NCBI GenBank assembly: GCA_026416815.1
Contig: JAOAEJ010000072.1
Span: forward strand, 62,001-126,000
From: Clostridia bacterium
Lineage (GTDB): Bacteria > Bacillota > Clostridia > Acetivibrionales > DSM-2933
Direction of reading: 5' to 3'
DNA length: 64,000 nt
The notes under the pieces were generated by a model. It saw nothing but the letters and a program-made list of their open reading frames with translations. It did no database searches and was not told the origin of the DNA. Positions 8,801 through 45,080 of this stretch are shown piece by piece; positions within the stretch are counted from its first letter, which is position 1, and each line of letters opens with the position of its first letter. Both the position numbers and the translations under genes were made by a program.

Positions 8801-11800
8801 GCGCTGTTATCAAAGGTACAGGTATTAATAACGATGGTTCGTTGAAGGTAGGTTATACCGCTCCAAGAATTGACGGGCAGGCTGGAGCAATCTCCGAGGC
8901 CATGGCTAAAGCGGATATAAACCCTGAAACAATAACATATATAGAAGCTCACGGAACCGGAACACCTCTGGGAGACCCTATTGAAATTGAGGCTTTAAAG
9001 CAGGTGTTTACTAGAAAGACCGATAAAAAAGGCTTCTGTGCAGTTGGTTCTGTAAAGACAAACGTAGGACATCTTGATGCAGCAGCAGGAATAACCGGGT
9101 TGATAAAAACCGTGTTATCTCTCAAGAATAAGATGATACCTCCAAGCTTGAATTATGAAAAGCCAAATCCAAAGATAGACTTTGAGAACAGTCCGTTCTT
9201 TGTAAACACAAAGCTGACTGAATGGAGAAGCAGTGCCGGTCCTTTGAGAGCGGGATTAAGCTCTTTCGGTATCGGAGGAACCAATGCCCATGCAGTACTG
9301 GAGGAGGCTCCTGCATTGAATAAAGAGGATACTGGAAAAGAAAGCTGTCTGATGATATTCTCGGCCAAAACAGAAACTGCGCTGGATGCCATGACAGCAA
9401 ACTTTGTGGACTTCTTGAAAAAGAATGTGAATGTGAACATGGCGGATGTTGCATATACCCTCCAAATGGGCAGGAAAGAGTTTGAGTACCGCAGGTACCT
9501 GGTATGTACATCCAGAGAGGACGCTATAGAAGCTCTTGAAAGCATCAATGCTGAGCCAAAGCGTGTATTCAGCGGAATGGTAGAACAAGCAGCGGGTATG
9601 CAAGTTGATGAAAATAGTTTGAAGACAATCTCTCCTGAAGAACTCGGAAAGCTTTGGCTGTCGGGTACAAGGATAGACTGGAGCAAACTGTATGAAGGAC
9701 AGCAGAGAAGGCGTGTTGCACTGCCTAGCTATCCATTTGAAGGACAGTCCTTCTGGGTAAGCAAGCGCAAGGAAAAGGTAGTTGAAAAGGATGAAGCTGC
9801 AAAAAGACAGGATGTTTCCGAGTGGTTCTACAGTCCGGTATGGAAGCAGTCCACGCAGGATGTATGCTTTACACCAGACTTAGTTGAAAGCGGCCCAGTA
9901 GTGCTGGTACTGGCTAAAGCAGGAGATTTTACCGGTAAACTGGTAAGACGTATGGCTGAGTTCAACATAGATGTGATTACAGCAACCGGCGGCAGCGAGT
10001 ATAAAAAAGCGGATAATAATACTTATATATTTAATCCGGATAACAATGAGGATTACGACAAACTAATTCAGGAGCTTGCCGGAATGGGCAAAAAGCCTGG
10101 AAAGGTAGTAAGTCTGTTGGGTGTTGGTGATAACAATGCGGACACAGACAGGCAGTTCTACAGTTTGCTTTATCTTACTCAAGCATTAGGCAAGCAGGCA
10201 TGGAACACGCCGATACATATTAAGGTACTGACAAACAACTCCTATAGGATATTCGGAGAGACGGCTTTAGCTCCTGAGAAGGCACTTATCCAGGGACCTA
10301 TCAGGGTTATACCTAGGGAATACCCGAATATCAAGTGCAACGGCATAGACTTTACCATACCTGAGCCGGGAAGTGAAATTGAGACAGAAATTGTAGACCA
10401 GCTTATAGCTGAGATATATACCGAAACAGAGGAACCTGCGATTGCTTATCGCGGTGTAGAACGTTGGATACAGGATTTTGAAAAGGTAAAACTGGAAAGC
10501 AAGAACGCCCCAGCAGTACCGCTTAAGAATGGAGGGGTTTACCTCATAACCGGAGGAATGGGTGGAATCGGACTTGTACTGGCAGGGTACCTGGCAAAAG
10601 GAAACCAGGTGAAGCTGGCATTGGTCAGCCGCTCGGGATTACCGGAGAGGGAGCAGTGGGACGAGCTTTTGGTGAGCCGTAGTGCTAACCGTAAGACTCT
10701 GCAGATAATTAAGAAGTTAAAGTCCTTTGAGGAACTTGGAGCACAAATTCTTATCTGCAAGGGGGATGTAACTAATCCTGAAGATATGATTAAGGTAAGG
10801 GATCAGGTGGAGCAGAGCTTTGGTAAGGTTGACGGTATTATACATGCAGCGGGAGTTCCTGGTGGAGGTATGATACAGCTCAAGAAAAAAGAGGCTTCAC
10901 AAGATGTTCTTGCTCCTAAGGTTAAGGGTACTATTGCTTTGCATGAAGCGTTTAAGGACAGCAAGCTGGACTTCTTTATCTTGTGTTCTTCGTTAAACGC
11001 CATTACCGGAGGTTTTGGACAGATAGACTACAGCTCGGCAAATGCATTCCTTGATGCCTTTGCTCAGAAATATGATTCCCGCCGCGGAACACGATGTGTC
11101 TCCATCAACTGGGATAGATGGCCCGGCGTGGGGATGGCTGTAGAGCCGGGACGCCAGGGGGAGGCTCAGGAAGAGGTTCATCCGCTGTTAGGAAAACGCG
11201 TGACTGATACACCGGAAAAGATGGTCTACTTGTCAGAGTTAAATCCAGAGAAGGATTGGGCGTTGTCAGAACACCTTGTACTGGGGGTTCCAACCATTGC
11301 GGGGACAACCTATCTCGAAATGGCAAGGGCTGCTATGGCGGATATCGCAGGCTCTGCACCGGTAGAAATAACCGACGTACTGTTCCTTACACCATTGGCA
11401 GTTAAGAATGGGGAGAAGCGTGATGTGTTCACTATTCTTGATAAGGACGGTGAGGGCTATAGGTTCCGCATAGTGAGCAGACTGCGTACAGAAGGAGAAG
11501 GAAAATCCGGCTGGCAGGAGCATTCCCGTGGGAAAGTTGCTGTTTCGAAGGTAGAGCCGGGTAAGGAATTCGACCTGCTCCAACTTGCAGCGACTTGCAA
11601 TGAAAGAGTTATAGATATGTCAAGGCCTGAAGACAAACCGAAAGAGGAGTTCATAAGCTTCGGAGGAAGATGGAGATCATTGAAGAAATTCGGTATGAGG
11701 GGCAGCGAGGCATTGGTAGAAGTGGAACTTGGCAGTGAGTTTGCTTCTGACCTTGCAGAATATAAGCTCCATCCATCTACCCTTGACGTAGCTACCGGCT

Positions 11801-12678
11801 CGGTTAGGCTGGCAAACGGAGGAAACTATCTGCCGTTTTCCTATGCGAGGCTTATTATAAAAGGATATCTGACTCAGAAGGTATATGCTCATATAAGGTA
11901 TAAAAATGGTTATAACTCTGATGTAATAACTGTTGATATAGATATTATAGGTGATAACGGAAGTCACCTTGCGGAGATAAAGGACTTCTCTATGAGGCTG
12001 GTAAGTGAAGCAGCAGCTGCGGATATAAAGGTGAGAACATCGGGAGAGCAGGGACAAGCTGAATTCGCAGGACTTGACAAGCTTTATGCAGATGCGACGG
12101 GCAAGAAGGGCATAAGTGCATTAAGTGAGGGAATTGCTCCTGATGAAGGCATGGAAGCTTTCAAACGCATACTGCAGGGATGCTTTAAGCCTCAGGTTGT
12201 TGTTTCGACTAAGGATATAAAAGTAGCGGTGCAACAGGCTCAATACATAAATCAGCCGGGTATAGGCGGTTCCTTGGATGATGGGGACCAGAACAAAACA
12301 CTACACCCAAGGCCGGATCTTAAGAGCGAATATGTAGCACCCAAGAATGAGGCTGAGAGAAAAATCTCGGATATATGGCAAAGGCTTTTAGGTATAGACA
12401 AAGTGGGAATACATGATGAGTTCTTTGAATTAGGAGGAGACTCGCTGTTGTTGGTACAAATGCACTCTAAGTTAAAGGAGAACTTTGAAACCGAAATAGC
12501 AGCGGTTGACCTTTATAAATACAACACAGTGGCTGCACTTGCAAAATACTTAAGCAGCGACACCGAAGAGAAGCAGCCTGTATTTGAGGATGTAAACAAG
12601 CGTGCCAATAGGCAGATTGAAATGATGAAGCAAAGAAAACAACAAATGATGCAAAGAAGAGGAGTGATTAAGAAGTGA
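2830..12678 (+). CDS. Hybrid NRPS/PKS: FAAL-ACP-C-A(Gly)-PCP-KS-KR(DH)-ACP
   Basis: 3282 aa, the starting protein of the line. Domains: fatty acyl-AMP ligase 1-565 (FSSGSTGDPK at 170-179; NWMPLTHDMGLIG); ACP with Ser614; condensation domain about 672-1110 (HHIIFDG near 803); adenylation about 1130-1640, whose selectivity residues read by eye are D-I-L-Q-L-G-V-I-W-K, one change from a glycine code; PCP with Ser1674; ketosynthase about 1735-2165 with Cys1905, His2041, His2081; no AT; ketoreductase from about 2330; dehydratase about 2785-3060 with His2815 and Asp2986; ACP with Ser3205. The KR C-terminal segment (GIAPDEG at 3101-3107, then PQVVVST) lies after the DH, so the DH appears inserted into the KR. 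The DH motif HxxxGxxxxP has Ala2824 instead of Pro. The FAAL-ACP-C-A(Gly)-PCP-KS start resembles PksJ/BaeJ of bacillaene. AAGGGG precedes the ATG. Confidence 0.92.
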   Translation: MTAHETLTDLIVSRKEETLRGITFILDESEDRFVSYSDLYYTALGHLYHLQAAGFKPGDEVIFQIEDNNNFVFFFWACVLGGMIPVPVTAGANDEHKLKLFKIWEVLNNPRIITSREFIDKLDSFAAKSSMSELVDDIRKSTVYVEEVAGTGNYGEIYKPKPEDIAFIQFSSGSTGDPKGVIITHQNVLTNLNAVIKWTNIGPNDAGLNWMPLTHDMGLIGTHIKALLAGINQYSMQTQLFIRRPTLWIEKASKYKVTILYSPNFGYKHFLKFVQPDTIRGWDLSNVRLIFNGAEPISSELCNEFLSRMEQYKLKRNAMYPVFGLAEGTIAVTFPHPGEDFSIYRLDRDFLGIGEVIKEVSADSKNAVTFVDVGYPIYNCYMRICDEKNNDLGENKVGYIQIKGGNVTSGYYNNKGATEQTITSDGWLNTGDLGFMRNGRLVITGRAKDIIFMAGQNYYSHDIERVAEAVEGIELGKVAAVGAFNENKKCDELILFVLYKPKSVDKFLPIVSSLKRIINQQMGIEVSEVIPVRSIPKTTSGKTQRYKLRESYINGEFSEVKNEIHSLLDENFISREIDLPQNEIEEKLLGLWCDVLGASKVGTRDNFFELGGDSLKATQLISRIRDEFNTQLDQMELFENADIVSLAVALGKADRKGVQIQPIIEKAAAASDRLPLSFSQQRLWFLDRLNGQSAQYNLYTALQLKGSLNIELLLKSFNEVMKRHEVLRASFIEDDGQPVQVIHPGMTIDIPLVDMTDIAEEERKKRVLELAKEEASQPFTLEKAPLICGTLYRIKEEEYILVLVAHHIIFDGWSFGVLLKELAFYYEALSSNKGEVLPELEIQYADFAHWQVERIKGGLLKEQLDYWKGQLGGKLTVLDLPLDKQRPAIQTYNGAKLTGIIPRAQVEELQRLARKEGVTLFMVLLSAFKALLHRYTGQEDVIVGSPIANRNRREVEGLIGFFTNNVVLRTGFSGGASFQELLNQVKKVTLEAYANQDVPFEKLVEELNVERDMSRNPLFQVLFSLQNTPTPVSEFAGISISSTDLDIGCARFDLALDLWETKEGLAATFEYNTDLFHYDTISRIAGHYTEILEEIALSPEKEIKRLDILTGAERKTLLEDWNNTEADFGDVFSWVELFESQVEKAPDAVAVVAGNNQLTYKELNSRANQLAHYLTSIGVDTETIVGVYVERSVEMVVGLLGIHKAGAAYLPMDPIFPKDRLAYMVEDANVPVILTDRGIAGTLPEHNARLVYLDDKQEFEGLSDINPEKKGNSKDLAYVIYTSGSTGKPKGVQIEQFALINFLKSMERDTGVGEKDSLLAVTTLSFDIAGLELFMPLIAGAKVVLASRDEAMDGELLIEKIKEYNVTIMQATPATWRLLIESGWAGTPELTVLCGGEALPRDLANSLLDRCGCLWNVYGPTETTIWSTMARVESKTGAISIGKPIANTQIYVLDTCMNPVPVGIPGELFIGGDGVARGYLNRPELTQEKFIPDPFLQKEGARLYRTGDLVKFTPDGSLEFVGRIDHQVKIRGFRIELGEIETILTDNPAVHQSVVVAREIIAGEMSLVAYIIPESGHDSGALTAEKLRAYLKGKLPDYMVPSAFVTLEAFPMTPNGKIDRKALPMPEALRPKLEANYMAPENEIEKSLTAIWQEVLKLSRVGVNDSFFDLGGHSLLLAQVRSKIMKVLKKDVSIMDLFKYPTINTLAKFLQHDGKLEVQGTADSARTIKNRSESSDIAVIGLSGRFPGAKNVEEFWQNLCSGVNSITRLSDEEIIAEGVDPELLKNPEYVKAWGALDGVDKFDAKFFGYNPREAEILDPQQRIFLEEAWKALENSGYDSEKFGKAVGVFASVGMNAYVQNLSGGDKDGLASSYQIMISNDKDFLATRVAYKMNLEGPAITVQTACSSSLVAVHLACQSLLNGECNIAIAGGVSVRLPQKTGYLYQEGMILSPDGHCRAFDASSKGTVGGNGAGVVVLKRLEDAIADGDEISAVIKGTGINNDGSLKVGYTAPRIDGQAGAISEAMAKADINPETITYIEAHGTGTPLGDPIEIEALKQVFTRKTDKKGFCAVGSVKTNVGHLDAAAGITGLIKTVLSLKNKMIPPSLNYEKPNPKIDFENSPFFVNTKLTEWRSSAGPLRAGLSSFGIGGTNAHAVLEEAPALNKEDTGKESCLMIFSAKTETALDAMTANFVDFLKKNVNVNMADVAYTLQMGRKEFEYRRYLVCTSREDAIEALESINAEPKRVFSGMVEQAAGMQVDENSLKTISPEELGKLWLSGTRIDWSKLYEGQQRRRVALPSYPFEGQSFWVSKRKEKVVEKDEAAKRQDVSEWFYSPVWKQSTQDVCFTPDLVESGPVVLVLAKAGDFTGKLVRRMAEFNIDVITATGGSEYKKADNNTYIFNPDNNEDYDKLIQELAGMGKKPGKVVSLLGVGDNNADTDRQFYSLLYLTQALGKQAWNTPIHIKVLTNNSYRIFGETALAPEKALIQGPIRVIPREYPNIKCNGIDFTIPEPGSEIETEIVDQLIAEIYTETEEPAIAYRGVERWIQDFEKVKLESKNAPAVPLKNGGVYLITGGMGGIGLVLAGYLAKGNQVKLALVSRSGLPEREQWDELLVSRSANRKTLQIIKKLKSFEELGAQILICKGDVTNPEDMIKVRDQVEQSFGKVDGIIHAAGVPGGGMIQLKKKEASQDVLAPKVKGTIALHEAFKDSKLDFFILCSSLNAITGGFGQIDYSSANAFLDAFAQKYDSRRGTRCVSINWDRWPGVGMAVEPGRQGEAQEEVHPLLGKRVTDTPEKMVYLSELNPEKDWALSEHLVLGVPTIAGTTYLEMARAAMADIAGSAPVEITDVLFLTPLAVKNGEKRDVFTILDKDGEGYRFRIVSRLRTEGEGKSGWQEHSRGKVAVSKVEPGKEFDLLQLAATCNERVIDMSRPEDKPKEEFISFGGRWRSLKKFGMRGSEALVEVELGSEFASDLAEYKLHPSTLDVATGSVRLANGGNYLPFSYARLIIKGYLTQKVYAHIRYKNGYNSDVITVDIDIIGDNGSHLAEIKDFSMRLVSEAAAADIKVRTSGEQGQAEFAGLDKLYADATGKKGISALSEGIAPDEGMEAFKRILQGCFKPQVVVSTKDIKVAVQQAQYINQPGIGGSLDDGDQNKTLHPRPDLKSEYVAPKNEAERKISDIWQRLLGIDKVGIHDEFFELGGDSLLLVQMHSKLKENFETEIAAVDLYKYNTVAALAKYLSSDTEEKQPVFEDVNKRANRQIEMMKQRKQQMMQRRGVIKK

Positions 12679-15455
12679 GTAACTTTGAAGAAAGCAACTC
12701 CATGGGAGCCGTAGCTATTATAAGCATGAACGGGCGCTTCCCCGGAGCAAAAAATATTGAGGAGTTCTGGCAAAATCTTTACAACGGTGTGGAGTCGGTA
12801 AAATTCTTTACCCGTGAACAGTTGATTGAGCAGGGCATAGACGAATACCTTCTGGATAACCCAAAGTTTGTAGCGGCCGACGCTATATTGGATGATATGG
12901 ACAAATTTGATGCAGGGTTTTTCGATTACTCTGCAAGGGATGCGGAAATCATGGACCCGCAGCACCGTATGTTTCTTGAGTGTGCGTGGGAGGCTATGGA
13001 GAGCGCAGGGTACAATTCAGACCTATATGACGGCAAAGTTGCCGTCTATGCCGGGTCTGCATTAAGCGGCTATATGATAAGGAATCTCTATTCCAATCCA
13101 GGATTAGTTGAAAATGTAGGTACTTTTAAAATCATGATTGCTAACTCTCAGGACTTCCTTTCAACCAAGGTGTCTTATAAAATGAACCTGACAGGGCCGA
13201 GTGTAAATGTAAATACCCTCTGTTCCTCTTCCTTGGTTGCAGTGGATATGGCATGCAAGAATCTCTTAAGCTATGGATGTGATTTAGCTATAGCCGGAGG
13301 TGTAAGCTTCCAGATTTCAAGGAATGAGTCCTTCTTCTATCAGGAAGGTGGTATAGGCTCATCCGATGGGCACTGCCGTGCTTACGATTCTAAGGCAAAT
13401 GGGACAACAAGCGGAAGCGGACTTGCCCTGGTTGTATTAAAAAGGCTTGAAGACGCGATAGCTGATGGGGATTACATTCATGGAGCTATAATAGGTTCCG
13501 CAGTCAATAACGACGGAGCCTCCAAAAACAGCTTTACCGCTCCAAATGCTGACGGTCAGGCGGAATGTATTGCCGAAGCAATAGCGATGTCCGGTGTAAA
13601 CCCTGAAACCATAACCTATATTGAAGGGCACGGCACAGGCACAAACCTCGGAGACCCTATAGAAATTTCAGGTCTCACAAAGGCTTTCCGCTCCTATACC
13701 GACAAGAAGCAGTTTTGTGCTGTGGGATCGGTTAAGACCAACATAGGCCACCTTGTTACTGCCGGGGGCGTAGCGAGTTTGATTAAGACTGTTTTGTCTA
13801 TGCAAAACAAAATGCTGCCTCCAAGCTTAAACTTTGAAGAGCCTAATCCGAAGATTGATTTTATGAATACTCCGTTTTACGTTAATAATAGATTGTCCAA
13901 ATGGGAGCCGGACGGTTTTCCGATGAGAGCTGGCGTAAGCTCCTTCGGTATCGGCGGTACCAATGCCCACGTAATTGTTGAAGAGGCCCCTGAAATGGAA
14001 CCATCGGGCGAATCCAACAGGCCAAAGCAGCTTGTTGTCATGTCTGCAAAGACATCAACTGCCCTTGATAAAATGACTTCCAACATGATTGAATACATAA
14101 GAAAAAATCCTGAAGCTGATCTGGCAGACATTGCATTTACACTGCACGTAGGGCGCAGAAGCTTCAATCACCGTCGTATGGTTGTATGCAGCGATGTGAG
14201 TGAGTTGGCGGCTAAGCTGGAAGCAGGGGAAGCTCACACACTGTTCCAGAAGCCAAAGGAACAACCTACTGTGTTTGTATTCTCAAGTGAAGAGAATATG
14301 TATAAAAATATGGGACTGGAGATTTACCAGTCAGAGCCGGCTTTTGCAGAGTATGTAGACCAGTGCGCGGATATACTTAAATCCTTGATTAGCCTTGACA
14401 TCCGTCAGGTATTGTATCCTGAGCAGTCAAATGAGGCTTGGGCGGAGCAGCAGCTTAAGCAATACAATATTGCAAGGGCGGCTGCATTCGTTACACAATA
14501 TGCTCTGGCAAAGCTATGGATGGAATGGGAAGTTTCACCTGAGTTCATGGTCGGTGAAGGTGCAGGGGAATATGTAGCTGCGTGTCTGTCTGGAGTAATG
14601 TCGCTGGAAGATGCCCTTATGCTGGTATCTGCAAAGGATGAGATACTACCTCAGAAGGCTGCAGCGGTAAGCTTTAATGCTGTTGAGATTCCATTCATCT
14701 CATGCTTTACAGGGACATGGATCAGCGATTCTGATGCGGGAAGTTCCGACTACTGGGCACGCAGGCAGCGCCAAGGCGTACGTTTCGCTGAAGGCCTGCA
14801 GGAAGTACTGAAGGATGCAGATCAGATATTCGTAGAAATAGGTTATGGGAAAAAGTTAAGCAGTGAAATTGTTAAACTCGGGAGACAAGATGTAAATTAC
14901 ACAATAGTTAGTACAATGACTGATTCAGAAACTTTACTGCTCAGTGCAGGACAGTTCTGGATGGCGGGAGGTAGAATCAATTGGTTCAAATTCTACGCTG
15001 CCGAGAAGCGTCATAGAATTCCGCTTCCAACCTATCCTTTTGAGCGTCAGAGCTATTGGATAGAGCCGGGTAATCGTGGGGCTGGTGTGGCAGAAGGTGC
15101 TGATGGAAAGCTGGGACTCAAAAAGAGACCAAGACCTGAGATGGAGATACCTTATATTGCGCCAAGAAATGAGACGGAAGAAGCAATCGCCACTGTATGG
15201 CAGAACATATTAGGTTTTGACCGTATAGGAATCCACGATGACTTTTTTGAGCTTGGAGGGCACTCGCTGCTGGCTGCTGCCGTTGCTGCAGAATTGAGCA
15301 AGGCACTCCAAATACAGGTGCCTATCCGCAACCTGTTTGAGCTTTCTACAATTGAGAAGGTTGCTGAAATGATTGAAACATACCGCTGGGCTGCGCAGAG
15401 CATGGATGAAGTTGCTGCTGTTGCTGAAGAAGATTTGGAAGGCGGGACTATATAA
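12675..15455 (+). CDS. PKS module: KS - vestigial AT - PCP
   Basis: 926 aa. GTG start overlapping the previous stop by four bases, with GAGGAG upstream, so the two are translationally coupled. KS at about 10-440 keeps Cys183, His319 and His359, although the nucleophile motif is NTLCSSS rather than DTACSSS. Residues about 530-780 align by eye with a cis-acyltransferase (PTVFVFSSEEN; YVAACLSGVMSLEDAL; PFISCFTGTWISD; DYWARRQRQGVRF) but the GHSxGE active site has become GEGAGE (627-632), and the roughly 120-residue small subdomain with the second catalytic His is missing. This AT cannot work. A post-AT linker (YPFERQSYW) and a PCP with Ser864 follow. There is no reducing domain, so a beta-keto intermediate is expected. 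The C-terminus ends in an acidic tail with hydrophobic end (EEDLEGGTI), suited to docking with the next protein. Confidence 0.9.
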   Translation: MSNFEESNSMGAVAIISMNGRFPGAKNIEEFWQNLYNGVESVKFFTREQLIEQGIDEYLLDNPKFVAADAILDDMDKFDAGFFDYSARDAEIMDPQHRMFLECAWEAMESAGYNSDLYDGKVAVYAGSALSGYMIRNLYSNPGLVENVGTFKIMIANSQDFLSTKVSYKMNLTGPSVNVNTLCSSSLVAVDMACKNLLSYGCDLAIAGGVSFQISRNESFFYQEGGIGSSDGHCRAYDSKANGTTSGSGLALVVLKRLEDAIADGDYIHGAIIGSAVNNDGASKNSFTAPNADGQAECIAEAIAMSGVNPETITYIEGHGTGTNLGDPIEISGLTKAFRSYTDKKQFCAVGSVKTNIGHLVTAGGVASLIKTVLSMQNKMLPPSLNFEEPNPKIDFMNTPFYVNNRLSKWEPDGFPMRAGVSSFGIGGTNAHVIVEEAPEMEPSGESNRPKQLVVMSAKTSTALDKMTSNMIEYIRKNPEADLADIAFTLHVGRRSFNHRRMVVCSDVSELAAKLEAGEAHTLFQKPKEQPTVFVFSSEENMYKNMGLEIYQSEPAFAEYVDQCADILKSLISLDIRQVLYPEQSNEAWAEQQLKQYNIARAAAFVTQYALAKLWMEWEVSPEFMVGEGAGEYVAACLSGVMSLEDALMLVSAKDEILPQKAAAVSFNAVEIPFISCFTGTWISDSDAGSSDYWARRQRQGVRFAEGLQEVLKDADQIFVEIGYGKKLSSEIVKLGRQDVNYTIVSTMTDSETLLLSAGQFWMAGGRINWFKFYAAEKRHRIPLPTYPFERQSYWIEPGNRGAGVAEGADGKLGLKKRPRPEMEIPYIAPRNETEEAIATVWQNILGFDRIGIHDDFFELGGHSLLAAAVAAELSKALQIQVPIRNLFELSTIEKVAEMIETYRWAAQSMDEVAAVAEEDLEGGTI

Positions 15456-15515: not shown

Positions 15516-18500
15516 ATGTCAGCAGTTACATTTCTATCCCAACTACGTAAGCTGGGTGTAAAGCTTTGGCTTGAAGAGGGTGAATTACGCTTTCAAGCAC
15601 CTAAGGGAGTGATGACTAAAGAGATTATTGCGGAACTTTCCCAAAGGAAAAATGAAATTATATCATTCCTGCGTCAGGTAAGTATGGGGGCAAAAGTAAG
15701 CCAAGACCCTATAATACCGATATCAAGGGAAGCTGGCAGTGGACTGCCTCTTTCCTACTCTCAGCAGTCAATGTGGTTTTATGACCAGCTTATTAAGGGT
15801 AACCCGGCTTTCAATATATCCAGTGCAGTAAAGATAGTGGGGCATCTGGATATAGCCGCTATTAAGAAATCACTTAATAAACTCCTTATACGTCACGAAT
15901 CACTCAGAACGACATTCAAAAACGTTGATGGGGTCCCAATGCAAATTATAAGTAATCCGGCGGAAGTCGAACTGCCCGAGATAAACTTAAGTCATTTAGC
16001 GGAAGAAAAACTTGATATAGCATTGAAAAAGTTGTTGAGGGAAGAATCTCGAAAAAGTTTTAATTTGGAAAGAGGGCCTTTATTCCGTTTCTGTCTTTAC
16101 ATAACCGGAGAAAATGAATATGTGCTTTCAATGACCATACATCACATTATATGTGATGCGTGGTCAAATGGAATTTTCATTGGGGAACTTTTTAAATTAT
16201 ATGGAGCAGATGTAGAAGGACGGACAATAGACCTGCCGCAACTTTCAGTACAGTTTGCGGATTATTCCGCCTGGGAGAGAAACCGCTTAAAAGGAGATTT
16301 ACTTGAAGAGATGGTAGGTTACTGGAGGAAACAGCTCGCAAATCCTACTACGCTTCATCTTCCTATCGATAGGCCTCATTCCAAAAACCAGTCATATGAA
16401 GGTGGAATGGAGCAAATCCATATTCCGGGAGAGTTAAGCGAGAAGCTTAAGGCATTCTGTCTGCGGGAAGGCACAACTTTATTTATGGTGGTTCTTGCTG
16501 CGCTGCAGACTCTTTTATATAGATATTCCGGTCAGGAAGACATATTTACCGGCACGGTTGTGGCAAATCGCAACAGGAAAGAGATAGAGAATGTAACGGG
16601 CTTTTTCATGAACACTTTGGTTTTACGCTCCAATTTTGAAGGAAACCCTAGCTTTCTTGAAGTACTGCGCCAGGTAAAACAAACAACACTTGATGCATAT
16701 ACATACCAGGAGCTGCCTTTTGACAAGCTTCTGGAAGAACTGAAGCCTGAAAGGCAGGGAAACCGGACTCCGTTATTTCAGGTAATGTTTATTCTGCAGA
16801 GCGCACCAAAAGCTGACTTTAAGCTGCCTGGAGCAGAACTGCAGCAAATAGACTTTGATGCAGGACTGTCACCATTTGAGTTAAGATTGCAGCTTACTGA
16901 AATGGAAGATGGGCTAAAAGGTGCATTTGATTACAGCTTGGCACTTTTTGATCCTGATACCATAAGGCGTATGTCTGCCAACTTGATAAGCATACTTGAG
17001 ATTATTGTACAAGAGCCGGATAAAAGGGTAGCTGAGCTGCCGTGTATAGATGAAGCGGAAATGCGGGAGCTGGAGGAAAAACGAAGACGGAACAATAAAA
17101 TTCAAGAGGTGTTGAAGTTAGCCGTAGCAGCTACGTTTACATCCGAACCGATACAACCTTATATAAGCTGGTGGTGCAGGCAGTTCGGCATAGAAACAGA
17201 AGTACACTTCGCACCATACAACCAGGTGTTTCAGGAATTGTTGGACGAGAAAAGCCTTATATCCTCAAATAAGGGTGCAAACATATTGCTTGTGCGTTTT
17301 GAAGACTGGATAAGGGATGACAGGTCTTCAGAGGATGAACAAATAAGAAAGATTGACAGCAGCTTTAATGACTTGGTGAGTATGTTGAAGAGTAAGATAA
17401 AGAAAATACCGTACTTCATCGGTGTGTTTCCCGTTTCTACCCATTTGCAGATAAGTGATGGGGTTAGGGAGTACATTGAGAAGAAGAATGAGGACTGGAA
17501 AAACGTGCTGGAGGGGATGGGCAACGTTTATGCAATAGACTTCAGGGAGCTTGCAAACTTGTATAACATCTATGAGGAGTTTGACAGCCTGAAGGATAGA
17601 GAAGGTCATATGCCTTTTACCGACGAATATTATGCTGCATTAGGTACCGCTGCTGCGAGAAAGATATGTGCTTGGCAAAAGCAGCACTTTAAGGTGATAG
17701 TTCTGGATTGTGACAATACCCTATGGAAGGGTGTATGCGGGGAAGATGGGGCTCAAGGCGTTAAGATTGAGGGACCATATAGAGAGCTACAGGAGTTTAT
17801 ATTAGAACGCAATAAGGAAGGTATGCTGCTGGCCTTATGCAGTAAAAATATCGAGGCAGATGTGTGGGAAGTGTTTGAAAAGAACTCTGCAATGGTATTG
17901 AAAAAAGAGCACTTTATAGGGCACAGAATCAACTGGGAGCCTAAATCTGCCAACATAAAAGAACTGGCTAAGGAACTGAATCTGGGCCTTGATAGCTTTA
18001 TATTTATAGATGACAATGTAGCCGAGTGCGCAGAAGTAATGGCAAACAGCCCGGAAGTCTTAACACTGCAGCTTCCGAACGACGAGTCGCAGGTATCTGC
18101 ATATCTTGGACACGTATGGGCGTTTGATAAGTTAAAGGTTACTGAGGAAGACGCCATGAGGACAAAAATGTACATGGCAGAAAAAATGCGTCAATCAGCT
18201 CAGGAGAGCGGCCCGTCACTAGAGAGCTTCATTAAAGGTCTGGGACTCAAGATGAGCATGAACCTTGTAGAAGATGACCAGTTTGCAAGGGTGGCCCAGC
18301 TTACACAGAGGACAAACCAGTTCAACCTAAGTACTATCAGGCGGACAGAGGAAGATATAAAAGAGTTGGTCGGCATGCCGGGTACAAAATGTTATGCAGT
18401 AGAGGTAAGCGATAGGTTTGGAGATTATGGGCTTGTAGGTGTGGTGATAACCAAGCAGGTACCAAATAAATTGATTATAGATACATTTCTGTTAAGCTGC

Positions 18501-19271
18501 AGAGTTTTGGGCAGGGGAGTAGATGATGCGATACTTGGCGGCCTAAGGAAATTTTGTACCGAGAATGGCATACAAATGCTGGAGGCAGACTTCTATCCGA
18601 CTGAAAAAAATATGCCTTTTATCAAGTTTATCGAAAGAACAGGATGGAACAAGGTGGAGGAAACCGATAGGTACATAAAATATCACTTAAGTATTGAGGC
18701 TATACCATCCGCCATAGACTACATAGAATGCCATTACAATTCCAGGATTGAAGGGCAGGATAAGGGCTTAACAGAAGAAAAGCAAATTCCTGTGCTCCAA
18801 CACACAGCTACTAACCAAAAGGTTGAGAATGGGCATGTAGATAAGGAGAACACATGGGAAGTAAAGCTAGTTAATGAGGAAGGCCTCATACATAGAAGTT
18901 ATTTATTGCCGCTGCAAAACAGTAGGGGACAGCTGTTGTTAAAGCTGCCTGTAAATGAGGGGACAGGCGGAAATGTTTCAAGGGCGGAGTACTTAGCACC
19001 AAGAAATGACATAGAAGAAAAACTTGTTGAGATATGGCAAAGGATATTAGGAATAGAAAGAATAGGGGTTAATGATAACTTCTTTGCCCTAGGGGGTCAG
19101 TCTTTGCTGGCAATCACCTTAATATCAGAGGCTGCGAGAGTATTACACAAGGATATAACTTTGCAAGACCTTTTTGAAAACCCTACAGTTGCACAATTGG
19201 CGGAAAATCTCAATGTAGATACCCAGGATGATACAGAATTCGGTGATGATTACGAAGAGGGATTATTGTAA
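15516..19271 (+). CDS. NRPS-like module: docking - C - FkbH - ACP
   Basis: 1251 aa. Residues 1-57 look like a TubC-type beta-hairpin docking domain (LRKLGVKLWLEEGELRFQAPKG). The condensation domain (about 75-520) has His209-His210 and Asp214, in the form HHIICDA with Ala for the usual Gly. In place of an adenylation domain lies a full FkbH-like unit: its N-terminal SGNH-like half (about 540-720, FAPYNQVFQELL) and its HAD half with DCDNT at 731-735, CSKN, and FIDDN, ending near 1075. FkbH proteins dephosphorylate 1,3-bisphosphoglycerate and load a glyceryl group on a carrier protein. An ACP with Ser1196 follows. The C domain would then join the upstream acyl chain to the glyceryl oxygen, giving an ester (inference); a comparable C-FkbH arrangement is known, as I recall, from vioprolide biosynthesis. 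The acidic C-terminus (DDYEEGLL) may dock with the next protein. AAAGGAGG precedes the ATG. Confidence 0.9.
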   Translation: MSAVTFLSQLRKLGVKLWLEEGELRFQAPKGVMTKEIIAELSQRKNEIISFLRQVSMGAKVSQDPIIPISREAGSGLPLSYSQQSMWFYDQLIKGNPAFNISSAVKIVGHLDIAAIKKSLNKLLIRHESLRTTFKNVDGVPMQIISNPAEVELPEINLSHLAEEKLDIALKKLLREESRKSFNLERGPLFRFCLYITGENEYVLSMTIHHIICDAWSNGIFIGELFKLYGADVEGRTIDLPQLSVQFADYSAWERNRLKGDLLEEMVGYWRKQLANPTTLHLPIDRPHSKNQSYEGGMEQIHIPGELSEKLKAFCLREGTTLFMVVLAALQTLLYRYSGQEDIFTGTVVANRNRKEIENVTGFFMNTLVLRSNFEGNPSFLEVLRQVKQTTLDAYTYQELPFDKLLEELKPERQGNRTPLFQVMFILQSAPKADFKLPGAELQQIDFDAGLSPFELRLQLTEMEDGLKGAFDYSLALFDPDTIRRMSANLISILEIIVQEPDKRVAELPCIDEAEMRELEEKRRRNNKIQEVLKLAVAATFTSEPIQPYISWWCRQFGIETEVHFAPYNQVFQELLDEKSLISSNKGANILLVRFEDWIRDDRSSEDEQIRKIDSSFNDLVSMLKSKIKKIPYFIGVFPVSTHLQISDGVREYIEKKNEDWKNVLEGMGNVYAIDFRELANLYNIYEEFDSLKDREGHMPFTDEYYAALGTAAARKICAWQKQHFKVIVLDCDNTLWKGVCGEDGAQGVKIEGPYRELQEFILERNKEGMLLALCSKNIEADVWEVFEKNSAMVLKKEHFIGHRINWEPKSANIKELAKELNLGLDSFIFIDDNVAECAEVMANSPEVLTLQLPNDESQVSAYLGHVWAFDKLKVTEEDAMRTKMYMAEKMRQSAQESGPSLESFIKGLGLKMSMNLVEDDQFARVAQLTQRTNQFNLSTIRRTEEDIKELVGMPGTKCYAVEVSDRFGDYGLVGVVITKQVPNKLIIDTFLLSCRVLGRGVDDAILGGLRKFCTENGIQMLEADFYPTEKNMPFIKFIERTGWNKVEETDRYIKYHLSIEAIPSAIDYIECHYNSRIEGQDKGLTEEKQIPVLQHTATNQKVENGHVDKENTWEVKLVNEEGLIHRSYLLPLQNSRGQLLLKLPVNEGTGGNVSRAEYLAPRNDIEEKLVEIWQRILGIERIGVNDNFFALGGQSLLAITLISEAARVLHKDITLQDLFENPTVAQLAENLNVDTQDDTEFGDDYEEGLL

Positions 19272-19315: not shown

Positions 19316-22300
19316 ATGGTGGAAAAGACCACAAACGGAGATCATAATCATTCGATAGCTGATTTGGTTTCTGATATTGAAAGTAAAAAAATAAAGCTGT
19401 GGGTTGACGGTGAATTTTTGCGCTACAAAGCTCCCAAGGGAGTTGTCACCAAGGAAATACTACAATGCATCGGGGATAGGAAAGAAGAGATTATCAAATA
19501 TTTGAGTGCAGAGTCTTCCGCAGGAATTTTTTATGAGCCGATTCAACGGGTAGATGAGAAAGAATTCTATCCTATGTCAACAGCACAAAAAAGAATGTTT
19601 ATTTTAAACCAAATGGACAATGAAAGCACTGCATATAACCAGACTCAAGTATTGAAAGTAACAGGAGCAGTAGATAAAGAACGGGTTGAATGGGTAATAA
19701 ACCATATCATTGAAAGACATGAAATATTAAGATCATCTTTTGAAATGATTGATGGTGAGCCTGCCCAAATAGTAAATAAGTCGGTAAACTTTAAAATAGA
19801 TTTCATTGAATGTGAAGAGGCTCAGGTTGAAAATGAGATAAAGAGGTTTATAAGACCTTTTGATTTAAGCAAAGCCCCCCTCATACGGGTAACATTGGTA
19901 AAGGTATCGGATAACAATCATATAGTACTCTTTGATATGGACCACTTAATATCCGATGGCATATCCATGGCAATATTGATACGTGAAATTTCGGAATTGT
20001 ATGAAGGCCGGGAATTAAGCCCATTAAAAATACAGTATAAAGATTTCTCATACTGGCAGAAGCAAATGCTAAACACTGGTATAGTTAAAAAACAGGAAGA
20101 ATACTGGTTAAATGTATTTTCTGGGTCAATACCTGCAATCAGTATGCCTACCGATTATCCCCGCCCACCCGTAAGGAGCTTTGAAGGGGATCGGATAAAC
20201 GTTGTATTGGATGAAGAATTTACTGTAAGATTAAAATCCCTGGCCGACAAAATGGGAGCTACAACATATATGGTATTGCTGGCAGCCTATAATATAATGC
20301 TTCATAAGTATACAGGCCAGGAGGATATAGTTGTTGGGACACCCGTAGGGGGAAGAAGGCATTCCGATTTGCACAGCTTGATAGGGATGTTTGTAAATAC
20401 GATTGCTATGAGAAACTTCCCAGAAGGCAGCAAGACCTTTGAGGAATTCGTGCAGGAAGTGAAAAAAAGCACGTTAAAAGCCTTTGATAATCAGGATTAT
20501 CAATTTGAGGAACTGGTAGATAAATTGAATATCGAAAGGGATACCAGTAGAAACCCAATATTTGACACTATGTTTGTACTACAAAACATGGGGATACCTG
20601 AGATAGAAATTAGTGGTTTAAAATTTAAGCCCTATGAATTTGCGAATAGAATGTCCAAGTTTGACATTACCCTTGAAGCGATAGAAGAAGGCAGTGGTAC
20701 TATTAGGCTCAACCTTGAGTACTGTACTAAGCTGTTTAAAGCTGAGACAGCCAAAAGAATGCTGCTGCACTACACAAATATATTAAAAGAGATGGTAATG
20801 AATCCTTATAGCAGGTTGTGCGACATCAATATGCTGTCTGATGAGGAAGAAAGGCAGATACTGCTTGAGTTCAACGATACCAAGGCTGAATACCCGGCAG
20901 AAAAGACCCTTTACCGTATGCTGGAGGAGCAGGCTGAACGGACGCCTGACAGGGTAGCAGCTGTATTTGAAGGCAGGGAGCTGACCTATGGTGAACTGAA
21001 TGCCAGAGCGAATCAACTTGCAAGAAAGCTTAGGAATATGGGAGTGAGAGCCGACAGCATAGTGGCGGTAATAGTTAAGCGTTCTTTGGAGATGACGATA
21101 GGGATAATGGCTATTCTCAAGGCTGGAGGCGCATACCTCCCTATAGACCCCGATTATCCCGAAGATAGGATAGGGTATATGCTGGAGGACAGCGGAGCTC
21201 GTGTACTTCTTACACAGACCCGTTATATATCAAACTTTGAAGCCAATGAAAGTGGGGCTATAGTAGTAGACCTTGATGACAGCAGCCTATATACAGGTAA
21301 TGACAGCAATCTGGAGCCTATAAACGATTCCAGAAATCTTGCTTATGTAATATATACATCTGGTTCTACAGGAAAGCCTAAAGGTGCTATGATTGAGCAC
21401 TATTCGGTAATTAATAGGATAAACTGGATGCAGAAAATGTATCCTATTGGAGCAAACGACGTTATACTGCAAAAAACACCTTTTACCTTTGACGTATCGG
21501 TATGGGAGTTGTTCTGGTGGTCGTTTGTGGGTGCTAAGGTTTGCTTCCTCGTACCGGGAGGAGAAAAGGATCCTAAAACAATAGTAAGGGCTATTGAAAG
21601 TAACAACATAACTACGATGCACTTTGTACCCTCAATGCTTAATGTATTCTTGGAATACCTGGAAGGGGACAGCACTGATATTGATAGGCTTTCTGGCCTC
21701 AGACAAGTATTTGCAAGTGGAGAGGCACTGAATTTGCAGCAGGTGGAGAGGTTTAACAGCCTACTGTATGGAAAATATGGGACAAAGCTGCACAATCTGT
21801 ACGGACCTACTGAGGCAACGGTAGATGTATCCTACTTTGATTGTTCTACAGGGGAAAAGCTTGAAGTGGTACCTATAGGCAAGCCTATAGATAATATACA
21901 GCTTTATGTAGTAAATAAATACAATAAGCTGCAGCCGATAGGAATAGCCGGAGAACTTTGTATAGCCGGTGATGGGTTGGCAAGAGGGTATCTCAACAGA
22001 CCGGAACTTACAGCTGAAAAGTTTGTGCCCAACCCGTTTACTTACGGTCAAAGAATGTACCGGACAGGAGACCTTGTAAGGTGGATGCCCGACGGCAATA
22101 TAGAATACCTTGGAAGGATAGACCATCAGGTAAAAATAAGAGGTTATAGAATAGAGCTTGGCGAGATAGAGGCAGAAATTCTGAAGTACAATGCTGTAAG
22201 GGAGACAGTGGTGGTTGCAAGACAGGCTTCAGACGGCAGCAAGTACCTGTGCGCTTATCTGGTAACTGATGAAGAAATAACTTCGGGTGAATTAAGAGAG

Positions 22301-25300
22301 CATTTGTTGAAAACACTGCCTGATTACATGGTACCGGCCCATTATGTTAAGCTGAGTAAAATGCCGCTATCGGCTAACGGAAAGGTAGATAGGAAGTCTC
22401 TACCCGAGCCGGATATGGGACTTGACACCGGGAAAGAATATGTGCCTCCTACAAATATATTAGAGGAAAAGCTCGTAAAGATATGGCAGGATATACTGGG
22501 GATTGAAAAGGTTGGCATAAACCATGATTTCTTTGAACTGGGTGGCCACTCGTTAAAAGCTACTACTCTTGTATCAAGGATGCACAAGGAGTTTAATGTA
22601 ACAGTACCATTAAAGGAAATATTCAGGCTGAATACAGTCAAAAGTCTTGCTGAATACCTTAAGGTAGCGAGCAGAAAAGAATACAGTTCTATAAAACTTG
22701 TAGAGGAAAAGGAATATTACCCGCTTTCAGCAGCACAGAGAAGGCTGTATATACTAAGTCAGTTAGAAGGCTTCAGTACAAGCTATAATCTCCCTGCGGT
22801 AATGCAGGTAGAAGGGGTGCTGGACACAGAGCGTCTTAACAAGGCTGTCAAAACCTTGATTGCAAGGCATGAAACATTAAGAACCAGTTTTGAAACAATA
22901 GACGGCATTCCTGTACAGAAGGTACACCAAAATGTAGATTTTGGAATAGACCTCGTGGAAGGCCAGGATGTAGAAAAAGCGGTAAGCAATTTTGTAAGGC
23001 CTTTTAAACTCAATAAAGCTCCTCTTTTGAGAGTAGGACTTGTAAAGCAGGCTCAAGACAAGCACATAATGGTGTTTGATATTCACCACATAGTTTCCGA
23101 TGGAATTTCGTTAGTGGTGTTAATAAATGAACTTGTTAAGCTTTATCAGGGTGGGCAGCCGACTGAACTGAAAATACAATACAAGGATTTTACTGCATGG
23201 CAGAATGACTTCTTCAAAAGCGAAGAAGTTAAAAAGCAGGAGAAATATTGGACCGAGAGATTTAAAGATGAAATCCCTGTACTCAATTTGCCCACCGACT
23301 ATCCAAGACCGGTAATGCAGAGTTATGAGGGAAGCAGGATAAATGCCAGCCTTGACCGGGAACTGGTTGAAGGACTAAAGAAAATTGCCTCAGAAACAGG
23401 AACAACCCTTTATATGGTTCTTCTGGGAACTTATAACACACTGCTTGCAAAATATACGGGGCAGGAGGATATAGTAGTAGGCACACCTGTAATGGGAAGA
23501 TCCCATGTAGACTTGGAAGGTCTAATAGGAATGTTTGTAAATACTCTGGCAATGAGGAATCAACCCAAGGGGGAAAAGACCTTTACCGAGTTTTTGAAGG
23601 AGATTAAAGAAAGTTCTCTTGAAGCCTTTGAAAACCAAGACTATCAGTTTGAGGAACTGGTTGAAAAGCTCAATATACCTAGGGATATGAGCAGAAATCC
23701 TTTATTTGATACTATGTTTGCATTGCAAAACATGGGGATACCTGAAGTAGAAATAAGCGGTTTAAAATTCAAGCCTTATGAGTTTGTAAATAAAGTTTCC
23801 AAATTTGATATAAGCCTTGAGGCATTAGAAGAAAGCAGCGGTACAGTAAGGTTGGAGCTTGAATACTGTACAAAGCTGTTTAAGGCTGAAACAGCCCAAA
23901 GAATGCTGGTTCACTACACAAATATATTAAAAGGGCTGGTAATGAATCCTGATAGCAGATTGTGCAACCTCAATATGCTGTCTGATGAGGAAGAAAGGCA
24001 GATACTGCTTGAGTTCAACGATACTAAGGCTGAATACCCGGCAGAAAAGACCCTTTACCGTATGCTGGAGGAGCAGGCTGAACGGACGCCTGACAGGGTA
24101 GCAGCTGTATTTGAAGGCAGGGAGCTGACCTATGGTGAGCTGAATGCCAGAGCAAATCAACTTGCAAGAAAGATCCGGGATATGGGAGTGACATCCGATA
24201 GCATAGTGGCGGCAGTAGTTAAGCGTTCTATGGAGATGACGATAGGGATAATGGCTATACTCAAGGCAGGAGGCGCATATCTCCCTATAGACCCCGATTA
24301 TCCCGAAGACAGGATAAGCTATATGCTTGAGGACAGCGGAGCTCGTGTACTGCTGACTCAAGAGCGCTATTTCTCAAGGCTTGAGACGAGTGGAAGCGGA
24401 ATAGCTGTAGTGAATCTCGAGGACAGCAGCTTATATACAGGTGATGACAGCAATCTGGAGCCAATAAACGATTCACGCAATCTCGCTTATGTAATATATA
24501 CCTCCGGTTCTACCGGAAAGCCTAAGGGTGCTATGATAGAACACTATTCGGTAATCAACAGGATAAACTGGATGCAGAAAAAGTACCCTATCGGAGGAAA
24601 CGATGTGATACTGCAAAAGACACCTTTTACTTTTGACGTATCGGTATGGGAGCTGTTCTGGTGGTTCTTTGTAGGGGCTAAGGTGTGCTTCCTTGTACCC
24701 GACGGAGAAAAAGACCCTGAGACAATTGTGAGAGCTATTGAAAATAACAATGTGACTACAATGCACTTTGTACCATCAATGCTCAATGCTTTCCTTGAAT
24801 ATATTGACGGTAAGGTTGACTTGCATAGGCTAAAGAGCTTAAGGCAGGTATTTGCAAGCGGAGAGGCTCTCAGTCTCCAACAGGCACAAAGATTTAACAA
24901 GTTGCTTTACAGCCAGTGTGGTACTACACTAAACAATCTATATGGACCTACGGAAGCCACTGTAGACGTATCCTACTTTGATTGCTCTGCAGGCGAAGAG
25001 CTTGAGCGTGTTCCAATAGGTAAGCCCATCGACAATATACAGCTATATATTGTCGATAAGTACAATAAACTTCAACCTGTAGGTGTAGCCGGAGAGTTAT
25101 GTATCGCCGGGGACGGATTGGCAAGGGGCTACTTGAACAGACCTGAACTCAATGAAGAGAAGTTTGTCCCAAATCCCTTTAAGCAGGGTAAAAAGATGTA
25201 CCGGACGGGAGACCTTGCAAGATGGCTGCCTGACGGTAATATAGAATACCTGGGCAGACTTGATTTCCAGGTCAAGATAAGAGGCTTTAGAATAGAACTG

Positions 25301-26437
25301 GGTGAGATAGAGACACAGATACTAAAGCTTGACTGGATAAAAGAAGCTGTAGTAATGGCGAGAGAAGATAAGAGCGGCAACAAATACATATGTGCCTATA
25401 TCGTAGCAGATAAAGAGCTGGTAGTTCCGGAAATAAGAGAGCATTTACTTAAGGAACTTCCTGACTATATGGTGCCGGCATACTTTGTGCAGATAGACAA
25501 CATTCCTTTATCACCAAACGGTAAGGCAGACAGAAAAGCGTTGCCTGAGCCTACAGGCAGGATAAATGCCGGTGAAGAGTATTTGTCTCCCAGAAACGAG
25601 CTGGAAGAAAAGATTCAAGATGTATGGCTCAAGGTATTAGATGCTGAAAAGATAGGTGTTAATGACAACTTCTTCAGCATAGGAGGAAACTCCATATTGC
25701 TTATTCAGGTACACTCACAGCTTGAGAAGCTGTACCCCGGGAAGCTCACAGTTACAGACCTTTTTGCATACACTACAATTTCTAAGTTGGCAGAGTATAT
25801 TGAAAAGACCGATAAAGCTGCAAAAGCTGATCTGCATGTTAAGAAACTGAAGCTGCCGGGAGAATATTTTACCTCAGGCACCATGGCTGGTGAAGCCTCG
25901 GCGATGAGCTTTAATGTTCAGGGAGCGGTGTTTGAAAGGCTTAAAAAAATATCTATGCAATTAAATATTGAAATATATGATATTTTACTGGCTCTGTACG
26001 GGTATCTTCTGGCCGATATAACAGAGTCGGATGCAGTAACGGTGCAAACAGCAGGAACAAAAGGAGATGATGTACTTTCACTGGATATAAATCTGGCGGA
26101 CATCGAAGAATACTCCGATTTGTTCCGTCAGGTAAGCAGCAGTAGGGTAAAGGCGGATATTGAAAATACCTACTCGTTAAAGGACATCATAAAAGGAGTA
26201 CCGGATAAAGGAGAGCATGAAATTTTGCCACTAATGTGCAGGAGAAATTTCCTTAATATTAAAGGCGATATAGATCAGGTATTTGATATTGTTCTTGAAC
26301 TGCACGAGTCAAAAGAAGCTGCAAGCTTCATGTGCGGTTATAATTCCGGCAGGTTCAGAACAGAAAAGGTCAAAGAATTAGTTAATACTTACATAAAGTT
26401 AATTGGGATGCTTATAAATAAATTCAATTTAGAGTAG
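19316..26437 (+). CDS. NRPS: docking - C-A(Ser)-PCP - C-A(Ser)-PCP - half C
   Basis: 2373 aa. A TubC-type docking domain (about 10-65, IKLWVDGEFLRYKAPKG) opens the protein. First C about 80-520, with D209-His210-...-Asp214 (first His of HHxxxDG replaced by Asp, catalytic second His kept); A about 545-1040; PCP Ser1079; second C with His1257-His1258; A about 1593-2088; PCP Ser2126. The selectivity residues of both A domains read D-V-W-H-F-S-L-V-D-K, a serine code, so two consecutive Ser are predicted. No epimerisation domain is present. The last 200 residues (about 2175-2373) match only the C-terminal half of a C domain, starting at an LPxxY motif and lacking HHxxxDG. The two modules share a nearly identical core stretch of DNA. 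Separated by 44 bases from the previous gene; GGGGG precedes the ATG. Confidence 0.92.
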   Translation: MVEKTTNGDHNHSIADLVSDIESKKIKLWVDGEFLRYKAPKGVVTKEILQCIGDRKEEIIKYLSAESSAGIFYEPIQRVDEKEFYPMSTAQKRMFILNQMDNESTAYNQTQVLKVTGAVDKERVEWVINHIIERHEILRSSFEMIDGEPAQIVNKSVNFKIDFIECEEAQVENEIKRFIRPFDLSKAPLIRVTLVKVSDNNHIVLFDMDHLISDGISMAILIREISELYEGRELSPLKIQYKDFSYWQKQMLNTGIVKKQEEYWLNVFSGSIPAISMPTDYPRPPVRSFEGDRINVVLDEEFTVRLKSLADKMGATTYMVLLAAYNIMLHKYTGQEDIVVGTPVGGRRHSDLHSLIGMFVNTIAMRNFPEGSKTFEEFVQEVKKSTLKAFDNQDYQFEELVDKLNIERDTSRNPIFDTMFVLQNMGIPEIEISGLKFKPYEFANRMSKFDITLEAIEEGSGTIRLNLEYCTKLFKAETAKRMLLHYTNILKEMVMNPYSRLCDINMLSDEEERQILLEFNDTKAEYPAEKTLYRMLEEQAERTPDRVAAVFEGRELTYGELNARANQLARKLRNMGVRADSIVAVIVKRSLEMTIGIMAILKAGGAYLPIDPDYPEDRIGYMLEDSGARVLLTQTRYISNFEANESGAIVVDLDDSSLYTGNDSNLEPINDSRNLAYVIYTSGSTGKPKGAMIEHYSVINRINWMQKMYPIGANDVILQKTPFTFDVSVWELFWWSFVGAKVCFLVPGGEKDPKTIVRAIESNNITTMHFVPSMLNVFLEYLEGDSTDIDRLSGLRQVFASGEALNLQQVERFNSLLYGKYGTKLHNLYGPTEATVDVSYFDCSTGEKLEVVPIGKPIDNIQLYVVNKYNKLQPIGIAGELCIAGDGLARGYLNRPELTAEKFVPNPFTYGQRMYRTGDLVRWMPDGNIEYLGRIDHQVKIRGYRIELGEIEAEILKYNAVRETVVVARQASDGSKYLCAYLVTDEEITSGELREHLLKTLPDYMVPAHYVKLSKMPLSANGKVDRKSLPEPDMGLDTGKEYVPPTNILEEKLVKIWQDILGIEKVGINHDFFELGGHSLKATTLVSRMHKEFNVTVPLKEIFRLNTVKSLAEYLKVASRKEYSSIKLVEEKEYYPLSAAQRRLYILSQLEGFSTSYNLPAVMQVEGVLDTERLNKAVKTLIARHETLRTSFETIDGIPVQKVHQNVDFGIDLVEGQDVEKAVSNFVRPFKLNKAPLLRVGLVKQAQDKHIMVFDIHHIVSDGISLVVLINELVKLYQGGQPTELKIQYKDFTAWQNDFFKSEEVKKQEKYWTERFKDEIPVLNLPTDYPRPVMQSYEGSRINASLDRELVEGLKKIASETGTTLYMVLLGTYNTLLAKYTGQEDIVVGTPVMGRSHVDLEGLIGMFVNTLAMRNQPKGEKTFTEFLKEIKESSLEAFENQDYQFEELVEKLNIPRDMSRNPLFDTMFALQNMGIPEVEISGLKFKPYEFVNKVSKFDISLEALEESSGTVRLELEYCTKLFKAETAQRMLVHYTNILKGLVMNPDSRLCNLNMLSDEEERQILLEFNDTKAEYPAEKTLYRMLEEQAERTPDRVAAVFEGRELTYGELNARANQLARKIRDMGVTSDSIVAAVVKRSMEMTIGIMAILKAGGAYLPIDPDYPEDRISYMLEDSGARVLLTQERYFSRLETSGSGIAVVNLEDSSLYTGDDSNLEPINDSRNLAYVIYTSGSTGKPKGAMIEHYSVINRINWMQKKYPIGGNDVILQKTPFTFDVSVWELFWWFFVGAKVCFLVPDGEKDPETIVRAIENNNVTTMHFVPSMLNAFLEYIDGKVDLHRLKSLRQVFASGEALSLQQAQRFNKLLYSQCGTTLNNLYGPTEATVDVSYFDCSAGEELERVPIGKPIDNIQLYIVDKYNKLQPVGVAGELCIAGDGLARGYLNRPELNEEKFVPNPFKQGKKMYRTGDLARWLPDGNIEYLGRLDFQVKIRGFRIELGEIETQILKLDWIKEAVVMAREDKSGNKYICAYIVADKELVVPEIREHLLKELPDYMVPAYFVQIDNIPLSPNGKADRKALPEPTGRINAGEEYLSPRNELEEKIQDVWLKVLDAEKIGVNDNFFSIGGNSILLIQVHSQLEKLYPGKLTVTDLFAYTTISKLAEYIEKTDKAAKADLHVKKLKLPGEYFTSGTMAGEASAMSFNVQGAVFERLKKISMQLNIEIYDILLALYGYLLADITESDAVTVQTAGTKGDDVLSLDINLADIEEYSDLFRQVSSSRVKADIENTYSLKDIIKGVPDKGEHEILPLMCRRNFLNIKGDIDQVFDIVLELHESKEAASFMCGYNSGRFRTEKVKELVNTYIKLIGMLINKFNLE
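20831..21028 (+). repeat. Near-identical NRPS module repeat, copy 1
   Basis: This 198-base stretch, from the end of the C domain into the start of the first Ser A domain, differs by about three bases from 23975-24172, located 3144 bases (1048 codons) downstream in the same frame. This is much closer than the surrounding module DNA and suggests recent duplication or gene conversion. Confidence 0.85.
23975..24172 (+). repeat. Near-identical NRPS module repeat, copy 2
   Basis: Second copy of the block at 20831-21028, at the C-A boundary of the second Ser module. The three differences I count are all silent third-position changes. It marks the spot where module exchange or collapse by recombination would be easiest, and where short-read assemblies may fail. 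Confidence 0.85.
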
Positions 26438-44973: not shown

Positions 44974-45080
44974 TGTTTTTTGTCAAAAAAGGTTGTGGAT
45001 TTTCGTAGGATGTATATGGTAAAATGGGAGAGTGATGTACAAAATAGGATTTAATGGAAAGGTTTTGGGTGAGGTTAATA

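Follow-up and report, generated by a model that had tools for sequence, protein, structure and literature searches.

A TubC_N-docked condensation–FkbH–carrier module predicted to add a glyceryl unit mid-chain in a clostridial assembly line

Results

Organization of the Module and Its Assembly Line

The window, the whole stretch of 64,000 nucleotides that was analysed, encodes an assembly line in which one protein combines a TubC_N docking domain, a condensation (C) domain, an FkbH region, and a carrier protein (Table 1). The open reading frame has exactly the limits and the reading frame proposed in an initial annotation of this DNA. FkbH was identified with NCBIfam (TIGR01686, residues 725–1044, 316 bits with the cut-off at 147; HAD-IIIC was also matched), and neither Pfam nor NCBIfam detected an adenylation (A) domain in the 1251-residue protein. 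Both collections thus bear out the annotated arrangement of a C domain and an ACP flanking FkbH in place of an A domain; the C domain, FkbH, and ACP had been listed correctly, and the N-terminal TubC_N domain had been overlooked. The serine of the carrier protein is kept. An FkbH placed between C domain and carrier, with no A domain, is the layout of C-FkbH-T modules of the vioprolide and cystomanamide kind.

The surrounding genes form a line that begins with a FAAL (Table 1). From signatures judged by eye against specificity codes, the A domain of the first protein is probably specific for Gly and both A domains of the protein following the module are probably specific for Ser; the signatures suggest Ser in the orthologues as well. 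In the upstream donor module, the Cys and both His residues of the KS are kept in five species. Its AT is a remnant with GEGAGE in place of GHSxGE, the serine being lost in all five species compared. A discrete AT is encoded downstream, and three PKS proteins come after it in the line.

Several further features were observed around these genes. The downstream C domain meant to accept the glyceryl thioester (19562–20863) reads DHLISDG, the first His being replaced by Asp and the second kept. At the end of the same protein, 25808–26434 apparently corresponds to the latter half of a C-like domain; in the Ruminiclostridium orthologues, a fuller C-like copy with HHLLCDG ends the protein at the same place. 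Before the FAAL gene, positions 1–2604 encode a cyclic-peptide-type ABC exporter (TIGR01194) and a C45 Ntn acylase/acyltransferase, and C45 is present in all four orthologous clusters. By analogy, the exporter and C45 look like an acylated-precursor (prodrug) scheme of the kind proposed for corramycin. No thioesterase is fused to the line. Two BtrH_N-domain proteins (41324–42418 and 42901–44496) are encoded after the last PKS gene, and release of the product by acyl transfer is a possible role for them. An 893-residue open reading frame adjoining the cluster (45054–47735) has no Pfam match.

Table 1. Features of the module protein and neighboring genes in the window
Feature	Positions	Strand	Length or evidence
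FAAL-ACP-C-A(Gly predicted)-PCP-KS-KR-DH-ACP, line start	2830–12678	+	
Upstream donor module, KS–inactive AT remnant–ACP	12675–15455	+	
C-terminal docking tail EEDLEGGTI of donor KS-ACP protein	15426–15452	+	
Whole module protein, TubC_N–C–FkbH (SGNH/HAD/GNAT)–ACP	15516–19271	+	1251 aa
TubC_N β-hairpin docking domain, residues 5–54	15528–15677	+	Pfam PF18563, 77 bits
Condensation domain, residues 77–519, LCL-like	15744–17072	+	Pfam Condensation, 350 bits; HHIICDAWS; tree and AU test
FkbH N-terminal extension, SGNH/GDSL fold, residues ~531–722	17106–17681	+	Predicted fold; identity step at ~531
FkbH HAD-IIIC phosphatase subdomain, residues ~723–874	17682–18137	+	TIGR01686/TIGR01681; alignment; 3slr
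DCDNT motif within HAD subdomain, residues 731–735	17706–17720	+	Sequence
FkbH GNAT-fold acyltransferase subdomain, residues ~910–1062	18243–18701	+	Predicted fold; alignment
Carrier protein, residues 1168–1230, GGQSL serine	19017–19205	+	Pfam PP-binding, 56.5 bits
Acidic C-terminal tail DDYEEGLL of module protein	19245–19268	+	Sequence
Next protein, TubC_N-C-A(Ser predicted)-PCP-C-A(Ser predicted)-PCP plus C-terminal C remnant	19316–26437	+	
Discrete trans-acting malonyl AT	26449–27723	+	TIGR00128 fabD, 336 bits

The FkbH Region Has Three Subdomains

Structure prediction for FkbH used 11 modular sequences (mean pLDDT 80.5, pTM 0.44); local confidence is high, and the pTM value makes the relative placement of the subdomains uncertain. 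In the predicted structure, model residues 8–200 align to SGNH/GDSL esterases (Z 16), this extension together with the next ∼150 residues, the HAD part, matches BF1531 (3slr; Z 29.5), and model residues 388–540 match GNAT acyltransferases (Z 17). The two-part FkbH first proposed, an SGNH-like half plus a HAD half, was rejected in favor of three predicted folds: an SGNH/GDSL extension, a HAD subdomain, and a GNAT subdomain. Alignment of the 11 modular relatives showed conservation of the HAD motifs LDCDNTLWKG, CSKN, an invariant Lys (K810), and IDD (DD832–833), with DCDNT at residues 731–735 as had been annotated. Among modular FkbHs, the GNAT half has a conserved Cys995 in LLSCRVLGRG and the motif DRFGDYG. 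Loss of FkbH catalytic residues, named at the outset as evidence that would speak against a glyceryl-loading module, was looked for by alignment; the motifs are intact.

The Condensation Domain Is LCL-like

The active-site motif of the C domain, HHIICDAWS, keeps HHxxxD, and the catalytic second His is therefore present. The nearest solved structures are Txo2 and Txo1, with 297 bits for Txo2 versus 132 bits for SgcC5 (4znm). In a tree of 121 C domains, 22 FkbH-linked C domains form one dedicated clade (SH-aLRT 99), which takes in the second C-FkbH copy of this genome, on contig C48. The window C domain and its four orthologues lie outside this clade, among LCL-like domains, in a 100%-supported group of nine that also holds the Ruminiclostridium C domain from the C-A module next in line. 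Joining this group to the dedicated clade was rejected by the AU test with p = 1.4e-5, a value that is indicative because the group was picked after the tree had been seen. Placement in such a tree had been suggested as a check for an ester-forming or starter-type domain. A starter type was rejected from the nearest structures (Txo2/Txo1), the motif DxWS, and the tree position; the domain is LCL-like and belongs to neither the starter type nor the dedicated FkbH-linked clade.

The FkbH tree places the window FkbH (98%) among clostridial FkbHs, most of which have dedicated-type C domains. Identity to the modules with dedicated C domains is 26%–30% in the C domain and 45%–57% from residue 531 onward. 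The simplest reading of these origins would be a recombination at the border between C domain and FkbH. On the C-domain tree the acceptor label (A or FkbH) switches at least nine times, which indicates that FkbH has been paired with C domains repeatedly.

Docking Motifs and Orthologues Place the Module Mid-chain

The same cluster is found in four Ruminiclostridium genomes of the same taxonomic order, one of them R. hungatei, with FkbH 63%–64% identical. It comprises a C45 hydrolase, a FAAL-C-A-KS-KR-DH protein, a KS-ACP protein, a TubC_N-C-FkbH-ACP-C-A-ACP-C′ protein, and an AT. In all four genomes the C-FkbH-ACP unit carries TubC_N and forms one protein with the C-A(Ser)-ACP that follows, with the KS-ACP gene before it. 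The KS-ACP protein ends in EE[DE][ML]EGGTI (once QEEMEGGTI) in five species, and EGGTI is identical throughout. TubC_N-type β-hairpin docking domains are bound by a short linear motif (SLiM), of which the last five residues make contact (PMC9113145). The KS-ACP tail, as read from its sequence, fits such a SLiM, and DDYEEGLL at the end of the module protein is likely a short linear docking motif for the TubC_N domain of the next protein. Judged by the conserved tail/TubC_N pairs and the fused orthologues, the module is internal, which supports the mid-chain position given in the initial annotation.

Distribution of Modular FkbH Domains

A scan of bacterial and archaeal genomes with an 11-sequence alignment gave 390 confirmed relatives. 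The 80 that were examined include R. hungatei but not the other Ruminiclostridium orthologues, and the figures that follow are a survey, not a count. By automatic domain calls in these 80 relatives and a local set, at least 47 C domains stand before FkbH; the element preceding these 47 is a PKS module (13), an A-domain module (13), TubC_N (8), a FAAL (3), another FkbH module (2), or something other or unknown (8). Internal C-FkbH modules occur in several phyla, among them in Paenibacillus, Cohnella, Aminicenantes, Chitinophaga, Pedobacter, Thiotrichaceae, and cyanobacteria. An FkbH this close (E ≤ 1e-150) was found in only six of 391 sampled genomes of the same class.

Some of these relatives have unusual architectures. 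Tandem C-FkbH-ACP-C-FkbH-ACP proteins were seen at L051/L052 (G034:C1:1043891-1056661) and at L058:7374-16391; the G034 protein has two almost identical FkbH domains and a BtrH_N-like domain at its end. A tandem of this kind is predicted to form a glyceryl-glyceryl ester. In Paludifilum and Paenibacillus (L062:5600-12112 and L074:5510-12163), the FkbH-linked C domain has MHN and not MHH, and the catalytic second His is lost. The second C-FkbH of the present genome belongs to a one-protein line, FAAL-ACP-C-FkbH-ACP-TE (G000:C48:12838-19110, also L010:12838-19110), that adjoins two B12-type radical SAM enzymes and a lipase (including L010:8205-12778). The product of this very small assembly line would be an acylated, perhaps methylated glycerate.

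Discussion

Predicted Reaction and Alternatives

The module is best explained, with a probability of roughly 0.8, as an elongation module inside the line, one that extends the chain by a glyceryl (D-glycerate) unit. FkbH, through its HAD and GNAT parts, would dephosphorylate D-1,3-bisphosphoglycerate and load glyceryl onto the carrier of the same module. The KS-(dead AT)-ACP protein upstream would dock by its C-terminal tail to TubC_N and present a fatty-acyl-Gly-polyketide chain, with which the C domain would acylate a glyceryl hydroxyl to form an ester. The resulting glyceryl thioester would then pass, by way of the DDYEEGLL tail, to the TubC_N-C-A(Ser) protein that follows. From the observed domains, active-site residues, gene order, and conservation we infer the loading, the ester formation, and the hydroxyl used. 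Glycerate has no amine, so the C domain could only form an ester with it, and FkbH in place of an A domain in an internal module makes a glyceryl unit with an ester the best prediction. The initial annotation arrived at the same unit and linkage, and to that extent it stands; glyceryl in preference to lactyl, like the ester itself, is the probable outcome of this reasoning. The LCL-like character of the C domain, in place of the dedicated FkbH-linked type, counts against the glyceryl ester. The prediction is open to testing in the Ruminiclostridium strains with this conserved orphan cluster.

In bryostatin, lactyl is loaded by FkbH-type domains. It is unlikely, though the likeliest of the alternatives, that the window FkbH likewise loads another three-carbon unit, or that glyceryl is modified before or after coupling, as in corramycin, where C-methylation of glycerate by a radical SAM enzyme was proposed (PMC10099666). 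The module, however, has neither a methyltransferase nor a dehydrogenase domain, and the Pfam-scanned window proteins include no radical SAM enzyme and no dehydrogenase beyond the PKS KR domains. Slightly less probable again is that the line skips the module or uses it optionally, with the KS-ACP tail docking to either TubC_N protein and glyceryl missing from part or all of the products. The two TubC_N domains of the window resemble each other, as do the two tails; a single SLiM is able to recruit several β-hairpin domains, and docking pairs can be promiscuous (PMC9113145), so that the KS-ACP protein might dock straight to the next TubC_N protein and bypass the glyceryl module. In Ruminiclostridium, however, a single TubC_N protein follows, C-FkbH-ACP being fused to C-A-ACP, which leaves no alternative docking partner there; the catalytic residues of FkbH and the C domain are also kept. 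It is very improbable that the module loads a second chain, with glyceryl starting the Ser-Ser part and the C domain silent: FkbH modules without a C domain have been assigned a loading function in suomilide and dysinosin, and the two FkbH-linked C domains at L062 and L074 lack the active His, but the window C domain keeps HHxxxD, and a loading module would have no need of N-terminal docking to a conserved partner tail.

A broader proposal, to which we give somewhat less than an even chance, concerns how the glyceryl-adding module arose. In cellulolytic clostridia and their relatives, domain swapping may have placed an FkbH unit after an amide-type LCL C domain belonging to the same line, creating an ester-forming polyketide-glycerate junction; together with the tandem C-FkbH-ACP-C-FkbH-ACP proteins, such modules would make up a class of lines building hydrolysable polyketide-glycerate and glycerate-glycerate esters. 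If this is true, an ordinary amide-type C domain became ester-forming by facing a different loading domain, separately from the dedicated clade, and the module offers a natural test case for whether the C domain or the carrier-bound unit determines the acceptor chemistry.

Comparison with Known Systems

The novelty implied by the initial annotation does not hold, as a mid-chain C-FkbH-PCP is known from cystomanamide and a C-FkbH-T following a FAAL from vioprolide and corramycin. Module 4 of the cystomanamide synthetase of Cystobacter fuscus is an internal C-fkbH-PCP that places glyceric acid in the chain (PMC9581180). Its likeness to the window module is one of published description. The cystomanamide module has a peptidyl donor and sits between amino-acid modules, whereas the window module would receive a polyketide from a KS-(dead AT)-ACP donor and is carried by a separate protein, where it follows a TubC_N docking domain.

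Vioprolide VioA and corramycin ComK have the order FAAL-ACP-C-FkbH-T (PMC8949500, PMC10099666), and in vioprolide the C domain attaches the acyl group to the hydroxyl of the FkbH-loaded glycerate, giving an ester (PMC8949500). Compared with the window module through their published descriptions, they share its C-FkbH-carrier core, but a fatty acid serves as their donor and the module comes second in the line, a plan matched by the C48 copy and not by the window copy. In malleicyprol BurF (C-NEX-T-Red), an LCL-grouped C domain esterifies a polyketide chain with a carrier-bound hydroxy acid (PMC12304814). Like the window module, BurF has an LCL C domain beside an FkbH-type N-terminal extension (PMC12304814); BurF differs in having neither a HAD nor a GNAT part, in not loading glycerate, and in its terminal reductase. 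The discrete FkbH glyceryl transferases of tetronate and methoxymalonyl-ACP pathways, such as tetromadurin Mad7/Mad14, convert 1,3-bisphosphoglycerate to glyceryl-ACP (PMC7489565). They belong to the same domain family as the window FkbH but stand alone, with a separate ACP and without a C domain.

A 2012 survey of clostridial PKS genes listed hybrid clusters of R. cellulolyticum without mention of FkbH (PMC3250452), and in the collection of papers searched, the single one naming both FkbH and Clostridium is unrelated. Given cystomanamide, vioprolide, corramycin, and BurF, precedent exists for this type of module, for its position within the chain, and for the ester chemistry. What is new is that an FkbH-loaded acceptor is paired with a polyketide donor, along with the arrangement of the docking elements and the swapped LCL C domain.
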